DNA of 64,000 bases from Treponema sp. Its GTDB lineage: Bacteria > Spirochaetota > Spirochaetia > Treponematales > Breznakiellaceae. The stretch lies in NCBI GenBank assembly GCA_031265845.1, contig JAISCC010000153.1, positions 1-64,000 of the forward strand. The letters are read 5' to 3'. The translations under genes were made by a program, and so were the position numbers. Within the stretch, counting starts at the first letter, position 1. The number at the start of each line of letters is the position of its first letter. This document shows, one piece after another, positions 12,861 through 33,267 of the stretch. The notes beneath the pieces were generated by a model that was not told the DNA's origin, made no database searches, and worked only from the letters and a program-made list of their open reading frames with translations.

Positions 12861-12883
12861 TTATAAAAATCGGAGGATTTAAC

Positions 12884-13369
12884 TCAGTCAAAAGTGTCTG
12901 ACACCACATCGTCTAATAAACTGGTCAGCCGGTGCAACCGGTGATATAAACTTCCAAACACCCACGCCCAGGCTTGCTCCACAAGCCCCGCCTTTACCGG
13001 ATTCTCAGCTATATACTCCCGTACCCGCAAAAAGTCCGCCATCCCCTTGATTATTCGCGAATAGAATCGCTCCCCCCATACATGCCCTTTCCGCCCATGC
13101 TCTTTATTCCACGCTTTCGCGAAATTGCACTTTATCCATTGCATTATTTCTGATAAAGTCCCGCCTTTACCCGGATTTATCAAAAAATGAATGTGGTTTC
13201 CCATAATACAGAAATCCCATAGGCGGAAATGGAACTTCCGCTTCGCCTTTTCGACGAAGGAGAGGAAGAGCGTCTTGAATCGCGGCTCAAGCAGGCTCAT
13301 GTCGTCATGGTCTATTTTCGACGTGACATGATACGTCGCTCCGTTGTGGAGTGTTCGCAAACTTCTCAT
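12884..13369 (-). mobile_element. REP-associated-type tyrosine transposase (RAYT/Y1_Tnp), copy 1
   Basis: GATYHVTSKI..., GNHIHFLINP (HUH motif), FAKAWNKEHGRKGHVWGERFYSRII, LRVREYIAENPVKAGLV. Confidence 0.88.
12894..12905. repeat. GTGTCTGACACC motif
   Basis: Exact 12-mer, overlapping the 3' end of RAYT copy 1. Confidence 0.9.
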
Positions 13370-13497: not shown

Positions 13498-13595
13498 AAC
13501 TTTGGTCAACTTTAGCCCCTTGTGGCAAGAAACTGGGGCGCAATTGGCGTAGTTTTTCTCTTGCCAACCACTCCCATTTTTTGTATCTTTTTCTT

Positions 13596-20171: not shown

Positions 20172-20214
20172 GTGTCTGACACCAAAACGTTTTCGGCAAG
20201 CGGTGTCTGACACC
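20172..20214. repeat. Pair of GTGTCTGACACC motifs without an adjacent transposase
   Basis: Exact motifs at 20172-20183 and 20203-20214. Confidence 0.9.
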
Positions 20215-32291: not shown

Positions 32292-32594
32292 GGCGGGTTA
32301 AACGCGGGCGGTGATCCGAAACGTCCCGTATACCAGGACGCATCCCTCTGCCGTGCCGGATAAGTTGTGGCATGAGTAGCGTGACACCGGAATTTATTGA
32401 ATTTTTCATTCTCAACTTTTCATGTCCGTGTTCTACTGTACAGTTGTGCGGGGTATAGCGCGGTAAAAATCGAAGGCATGGCGAATATGGGAGAAAATAC
32501 GCCGCCAACAACAAGAACCCCGCCTCCTAGGGCGTTCAATCGGCGATTCAATCGGGCGATGATTAAAAAAAATATTTAACTACCTCGCCACAGA

Positions 32595-33191
32595 GCGCTA
32601 AACTTGACCCACTACGGTGTCTGACGCCAAAGCAATTCTCATGACAATCCCGTTATTATAAGTATGAGAAGTTTGCGAACGCTCCACGACGGAGCGACCT
32701 ATCATGTCACGTCGAAAATTGACCATGGCGACATGAGCCTTCTTGAGCCGCAGTTCAAGACGCTCTTCCTCTCCTTCGTCAAAAAGGCGAAGCGGAAGTT
32801 CAATTTTCGCTTATGGGACTTTTGTATTATGGGAAACCACATTCACTTCTTGATAAAGCCGGGCAAAGACGGCGGTTTATCGAAAATAATGCAATGGATA
32901 AAGTGCAATTTCGCCAAGGCGTGGAACAAAGAGCATGGACGGAAGGGTCATGTGTGGGGGGAGCGGTTCTATTCACGAATAATCAATGGGATAAGGGACT
33001 TTTTGCGGGTGCGGGAGTATATAGCTGAGAATCCGGTGAAGGCTGGGCTTGTGGAGCGGGCGGCGGAGTGGATGTTCGGGAGCTTGTATCACCGGCTGCA
33101 TAGGCCAAGCAGTTTATTAGACGATGTGGTGTCAGACACTTTTGACGACGTGGAGTTAAATCCGCCGCCGTTTGTGGGTCAAGTTTAGCGC
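32595..33191 (+). mobile_element. Candidate RAYT element, copy 2, bounded by a 17-bp perfect inverted repeat
   Basis: GCGCTAAACTTGACCCA (32595-32611) versus TGGGTCAAGTTTAGCGC (33175-33191), enclosing the transposase ORF and GTGTCTGAC(G/A)C motifs at 32617-32628 and 33128-33139. Confidence 0.7.
32664..33188 (+). CDS. REP-associated-type tyrosine transposase (RAYT/Y1_Tnp), copy 2
   Basis: Close paralogue of 12884..13369; GNHIHFLIKPGKDGG, GHVWGERFYSRII, YIAENPVKAGLVE. Confidence 0.88.
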   Translation: MRSLRTLHDGATYHVTSKIDHGDMSLLEPQFKTLFLSFVKKAKRKFNFRLWDFCIMGNHIHFLIKPGKDGGLSKIMQWIKCNFAKAWNKEHGRKGHVWGERFYSRIINGIRDFLRVREYIAENPVKAGLVERAAEWMFGSLYHRLHRPSSLLDDVVSDTFDDVELNPPPFVGQV

Positions 33192-33267
33192 AGAGGGGCG
33201 CTGGATGAAGCGGAACGTGCATCCCAGCGGCGGCTGGGCAAGATCATTCGTTGTCAGGCTACGCCCG

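Follow-up and report, generated by a model that had tools for sequence, protein, structure and literature searches.

The window analysed here is a 64,000-nucleotide stretch at the start of a Treponema contig and belongs to a 3.57 Mb fragmented draft genome (G000) in 171 contigs, which is broken at the repeats described below. Among named genomes its closest relatives are Treponema MAGs, none of which gives a host in its title; the habitat, which we take to be the termite gut, is a reading of isolate names together with general knowledge. Between an ABC transporter and tsaB the window contains a small gene for which a first-pass annotation had proposed a product of the Y1/RAYT type, and both Pfam and NCBIfam models agree with that assignment (Table 1). 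The protein matches Pfam Y1_Tnp at 5.8e-14 and scores 97.8 bits against the curated NCBIfam model NF047646 (REP_Tyr_transpos), for which the cut-off is 80, the IS200 model giving 25.7, below its own cut-off of 55. Its best solved relative is the REP-processing nuclease TnpA-REP (PDB 4ER8, E=2e-9) and its translation carries both parts of the class 2 RAYT signature, HUH and Y---NP, as defined in PMC6006769. Y1_Tnp is the sole domain detected in the protein, with no C-terminal HTH, and a scan of the viral collection with the RAYT as query found no relative.

Table 1. Features of the RAYT locus and of related sequences elsewhere in the window (positions in the 64,000-nucleotide stretch).
Feature	Position	Strand	Remarks
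Mobile unit, TIR to TIR	32598..33188	+	591 bp; copies alike inside, background outside; missing from sister genomes at this locus
Left TIR, CTAAACTTGACCCAC	32598..32612	+	Tn5-type IS end; identical to the ends of IS L039, L155 and L166 and of MITEs L136-L138
Right TIR, TGTGGGTCAAGTTTAG	33173..33188	-	Last bases are the RAYT stop codon
Left copy of probable 9-bp target duplication, CACAGAGCG	32589..32597	.	7/9 identical to right copy
Right copy of probable target duplication, CGCAGAGGG	33189..33197	.	Partner of CACAGAGCG
Left REP-like palindrome, GGTGTCTGACGCC	32616..32628	.	One base off GTGTCTGACACC at 32617-32628
Right REP-like palindrome, GGTGTCAGACAC	33128..33139	.	Exact GTGTCTGACACC on the other strand
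RAYT gene	32664..33188	+	174 aa; HUH motif NHIH, Y motif YIAENP
Second RAYT copy	12878..13369	-	88% identical; right end truncated, no right TIR
Decayed left TIR of second copy, CTAAAGTTGACCAA	13502..13515	-	Two mismatches
Solo palindrome pair without RAYT, REPIN-like	20172..20214	+	Two GTGTCTGACACC; spacer resembles the left end of the unit

The gene is enclosed by a perfect inverted repeat, as had been claimed: the 17-mer GCGCTAAACTTGACCCA spans 32595-32611 and is matched at 33175-33191 by its exact reverse complement. A chance repeat is ruled out by counts at two scales: at up to three mismatches the 17-mer occurs three times in the window against 0.19 expected from shuffles, and at up to two mismatches it occurs 31 times in the whole genome against none for the reversed control. 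The RAYT protein itself has 42 matches in the genome, fragments included and many of them cut by contig ends, and there are approximately 16 full or nearly full-length copies that are 80-93% identical. A related sequence that had been reported at 13502-13518, beside the other RAYT copy in the window, is real but has three mismatches to the 17-mer.

Just inside the repeat are the two palindromes that the first-pass annotation had also pointed out; both exist, the left one with a single mismatch and the right one exactly but on the opposite strand. They are members of a family with 147 genomic sites at one mismatch or fewer, compared with one or two for the control, so that the gene is flanked by palindromes that also occur dispersed through the genome, as is expected of a RAYT. 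No conserved GT[AG]G foot stands beside the solo palindromes listed, as a typical REP would have, and the literature does allow for atypical REPs in some RAYT subclasses. The solo pair in the window folds as a hairpin (z=-2.6), and the strict REPIN-like pattern is found at only four sites. Elsewhere in the genome (L264, G000:C3:35100-36200) seven GTGTCTGACAC palindromes are spaced ~40-90 bp apart along a mostly non-coding stretch. Literature searches on this palindrome, or on RAYTs in termite Treponema, returned nothing relevant.

The suggestion that the matched ends delimit a mobile unit could be examined with nine RAYT units of 591-677 bp in which both ends are well preserved. Pairwise identity among these is 79% and 81% in the two 16-bp TIRs but only 25% in the stretch 21-60 bp beyond them, thus genomic copies are alike up to the repeats and not further; the slightly higher values of 29% and 41% at 9-20 bp from the ends reflect a type of target that is common to the units. 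The mobile end proper is CTAAAC...GTTTAG, which is narrower than the 17-bp repeat pair, as the outer CG/GC of the 17-mers is target sequence: the bases that abut the unit form an imperfect 9-bp target duplication. The TIRs sit outside the RAYT palindromes, yet they travel with the copies, and other RAYT copies in the genome carry the same ends, whilst one TIR is missing from many copies either by decay or by truncation. The RAYT ORF nearly fills the 591 bp between the TIRs, to the extent that the right TIR encodes the C-terminus of the protein and its stop codon (GTG GGT CAA GTT TAG), and there is no DDE gene inside, as would hold for a non-autonomous element.

Loci that lack the unit were looked for in sister species, as the first-pass annotation had advised, and do exist. 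At the locus in the window the unit is missing in three genomes (G002, G004 and G006); in G004 the alignment ends ~20 bp before the TIR on the left-hand side, and since conservation is lacking in the intergenic sequence to the right this locus gives presence and absence only and not a sharp empty site. A second locus (L010) is more informative, as G004 aligns across the insertion point without the whole 651-bp unit and both of its TIRs, and at a third (L013) the unit is missing in G006. The first-pass annotation had named two findings that would speak against its view, namely orthologous loci where the 17-mers persist without the gene and a lack of other genomic 17-mer pairs around RAYT genes, and neither holds.

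Matched ends had been thought unusual for an HUH enzyme; the ends are real, but they are the TIRs of Tn5-type DDE insertion sequences and MITEs. The ~16-bp end CTAAACTTGACCCACA also bounds IS elements of 1.45-1.48 kb that encode a DDE transposase of the Tn5 type (IS4 family), as seen in L155, L039 and L166. The first of these, from a relative in another genus, is 1469 bp long with the same ends and an intact 479-aa ORF in which Tnp_DNA_bind, DDE_Tnp_1 and Dimer_Tnp_Tn5 are all above cut-off, with E=5e-27 to the Tn5 transposase and the IS4-family YREK signature, read by eye, in YMQRWKIERFHYVLK. L039 lies in the genome of the window itself and is a 1450-bp element with matching ends, a perfect 8-bp duplication CCCTTGAG and broken Tn5-like ORFs, where Tnp_DNA_bind is recognised and Dimer_Tnp_Tn5 is marginal (26.6 bits, cut-off 26.7). 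An ORF beside this element (L039 2820-3425, start MTFFEFNSRFPTEQ) looks by eye like another transposase. The fragmented assembly of the window's own genome yielded no intact Tn5-like gene, and in the sister loci examined most such genes are broken. In the window's genome two contigs are identical over 119 bases of an IS end, probably the k-mer length of the assembly, and then diverge exactly at GTTTAG; this split confirms the boundary and suggests that near-identical IS copies are present in the genome.

The distribution of ends and genes among relatives is also telling. One genome (G015) contains MITEs of 225-226 bp with the same TIRs and perfect duplications of 8-9 bp (AGCTTGCT; GGCTTGCC, seen twice; and the 9-bp CGCAGAGCA and TGCTCTGCG), and another (G031) has 104 TIR sites, many paired ~230 bp apart; no RAYT was found in either, an absence that is not certain at completeness values of 64% and 71% respectively. 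The opposite is seen in G011, with 29 RAYT matches against three TIR sites, in G008 (21 against two) and in G037 (at least 44 against two), and conservation around the RAYTs of G011 and G008 extends no further than the palindromes. Counts of TIRs and RAYTs are thus decoupled across relatives, which implies that the two are separate things; they meet in the genome of the window and, at the right end, in G009.

This decoupling bears on whether the RAYT owns the TIRs. RAYT-like genes with TIRs and dispersed TIR families have been described before and were named TIRYT, or TIRtron, in 2013 (Di Nocera et al. 2013, PMC3733652); they belong mostly to subclass 2.1, with a C-terminal HTH in 20 of 26 (Quentin et al. 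2018, PMC6006769), and many members have a GGGGWSAS motif in the TIR. The unit in the window resembles them in its Y1 RAYT-like gene, its long TIRs that are unrelated to GTAG REPs and the further dispersed copies of those TIRs. It may then be supposed that a RAYT-like enzyme itself recognises the TIRs and moves the unit, the likeness to IS ends being due to ends that were adopted or shared, and the selection that keeps the RAYT reading frame would suit such a role. However, the TIR here is TGTGGGTCAAGTTTAG with no GGGGWSAS, the 174-aa protein has no HTH, the ends belong to a DDE element of the Tn5 type and the unit occurs in many copies, with target duplications. Furthermore the same TIRs bound MITEs and IS elements with 8-9 bp duplications where no RAYT is found, and RAYT-rich genomes are nearly without TIRs. 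Ownership of the TIRs by the RAYT was therefore rejected as the main reading and we regard it as quite improbable.

Duplications of the target are found around both kinds of element. For 15 IS and MITE copies the left and right 8-9 bp agree beyond permuted pairs (p=0.0002), and their flanks form paired stem halves (p=0.001). The nine RAYT units as a set also show duplications of 8-9 bp that are significant by permutation (p=0.0012); taken singly these range from 1/8 to 7/9 and are mostly imperfect, the best being 7/9 for the copy in the window and 7/8 for L015, against the perfect ones of L039 and the G015 MITEs. Paired stem halves were not seen around the nine RAYT units (p=0.82). A palindrome of 20-24 bp, CCCCGCC-n-GGCGGGG, that resembles a terminator or a REP is dispersed through the genome; it occurs uninterrupted at 26 sites against four for the control and is apparently where the Tn5-type elements insert. 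Intact target centres of this palindrome (CCTTCAGG, CCCTTGGG and CGCAGAGCG) resemble the duplications, and the flanks of the copy in the window, CACAGAGCG and CGCAGAGGG, fit with insertion into the centre of CGCAGAGCG.

It would seem, with a probability that we put at roughly 70%, that the 591-bp unit is a non-autonomous element of the Tn5 type (IS4 family), a MITE or "transporter IS" with a REPtron as its cargo, that is moved in trans by a DDE enzyme. The cargo would be the RAYT gene with its own REP-like palindromes, set between Tn5-type ends. A Tn5-like DDE transposase encoded elsewhere would recognise the ~16-bp ends, cut at CTAAAC...GTTTAG and insert the unit into the centre of a CCCCGCC-n-GGCGGGG-type palindrome with a stagger, and hence duplication, of 8-9 bp; the common ends, sharp boundaries, duplications, type of target and empty loci are direct observations, whereas the supply of activity in trans is inferred. 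The inner GTGTCWGACAC palindromes, and not the TIRs, are the presumed substrate of the RAYT, a role to which its association with them points, including the change of motif in G037 described below. Counting against this explanation are that only nine units retain both ends in good condition, that most of their duplications are imperfect, that paired stems are absent from their flanks, that many copies are without one TIR, that RAYTs multiply without TIRs in sister genomes and that the window's own assembly yielded no intact Tn5-like gene.

Another possibility is that RAYTs have multiplied through an HUH activity of their own, directed by the palindromes, with the TIRs as passive leftovers from a single ancestral insertion of a MITE. 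Many palindrome-bounded RAYT copies without TIRs in G011, G008 and G037 are in keeping with this, as is a copy from another genus (L067) that is related to those in the window's genome and has no TIRs. As a full account it is nonetheless unlikely, since TIRs located beyond the palindromes are carried along with the copies, the empty site at L010 is also without TIRs and there are target duplications. The multiplication of RAYTs without TIRs in sister genomes does mean that a second route of spread exists alongside the carriage by Tn5-type ends that we favour. An extension of the favoured reading, which we think rather doubtful, is a two-transposase element in which the RAYT, instead of being passive cargo, helps the unit to move or to persist, for instance because it processes the palindromes near the ends; HUH and DDE systems would then be combined in one element.

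The RAYT copies are old and well kept. Sixteen copies in the genome of the window have a median pairwise dS of 0.72 (minimum 0.29), dN of 0.072 and dN/dS of 0.105, with a range of 0.05-0.25 whose upper part may be inflated by one of the 16 (L031) that is frameshifted near its end; dN/dS in sister genomes is 0.06-0.11. Host genes of the species in the window differ from those of sister species by a dS of only 0.28-0.46, hence the age given to the copies. The synonymous divergence among these paralogues of a single genome (L009-L024) exceeds that between sister species, and their frames are intact. In a tree, which is weakly rooted as the outgroups are distant, genome-specific clades are seen in G011 and G009 and the copies from the window's genome form a related set, with L067 from G021 nested among them. 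A recent IS burst was rejected, the copies being far too divergent at the minimum dS given above, and so for full-length copies were dead relics, as nearly all have intact frames and dN/dS is ~0.1.

Such strong purifying selection, set against the broken Tn5-like genes that occur alongside them in the genome, suggests that each RAYT copy is of use, either to itself or to the host. It is also the part that carriage on Tn5-type ends leaves incompletely explained, being unexpected for purely passive cargo. One could propose that the paralogues are maintained by the host, that their dispersal is ancient and that no route of movement is left to the present copies, which the high pairwise dS, the low dN/dS and the intact frames would allow. 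We judge this highly improbable, for copy number varies widely within one genus (1 to 42 matches) and sisters do not share the insertions at the sites checked, which together imply that dispersal continued after or around speciation. A separate observation concerns G037, whose RAYT copies (at least 44, with 135 first-look candidates; L126-L135) are ~50% identical to that of the window with a dN/dS of ~0.11 and are flanked by motifs of the GGTCWGACC type in place of GTGTCWGACAC, such that the cognate motif has apparently changed along with the enzyme.

Comparison with known systems places the unit between several of them. It shares with RAYT/TnpA-REP and the REPtron (NF047646, 4ER8) the protein family, the HUH and Y---NP motifs and flanking palindromes that are repeated in the genome, but RAYTs are usually regarded as domesticated transposases; the literature has them as single-copy genes with vertical inheritance (PMC8049555), and states that REPtrons do not transpose as units (PMC6006769). 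Here there are dozens of copies instead of one, a departure from what is a generalisation rather than a strictly defining trait, no GT[AG]G foot is present and the REPtron lies inside a mobile unit. With Tn5/IS50-type elements of the IS4 family, their MITEs and transporter ISs it has in common ends of ~16-19 bp, a duplication of 8-9 bp and the existence of non-autonomous derivatives with the same ends; it differs in that the cargo is another transposase-family gene. The IS200/IS605 elements share the Y1 HUH nuclease family, but they have neither TIRs nor larger duplications (PMC2817692) and the unit is not one of them.

The pairing of a RAYT with TIRs is already known from the TIRYTs; what is unusual here is the number of copies and their intact frames under purifying selection. 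No description of a RAYT carried between DDE-element ends was found in the open-access literature that was searched, which does not prove that there is none. On the favoured reading these spirochaetes would provide a natural case in which REPtrons were moved as units on the ends of another transposon and then stayed intact, multicopy and under purifying selection. It would also offer an alternative view of the TIRs of other TIRYTs, some of which may be the ends of DDE elements and not HUH substrates. Were the two-transposase version to be true, REPtrons in these spirochaetes would be truly mobile, multicopy and individually selected.
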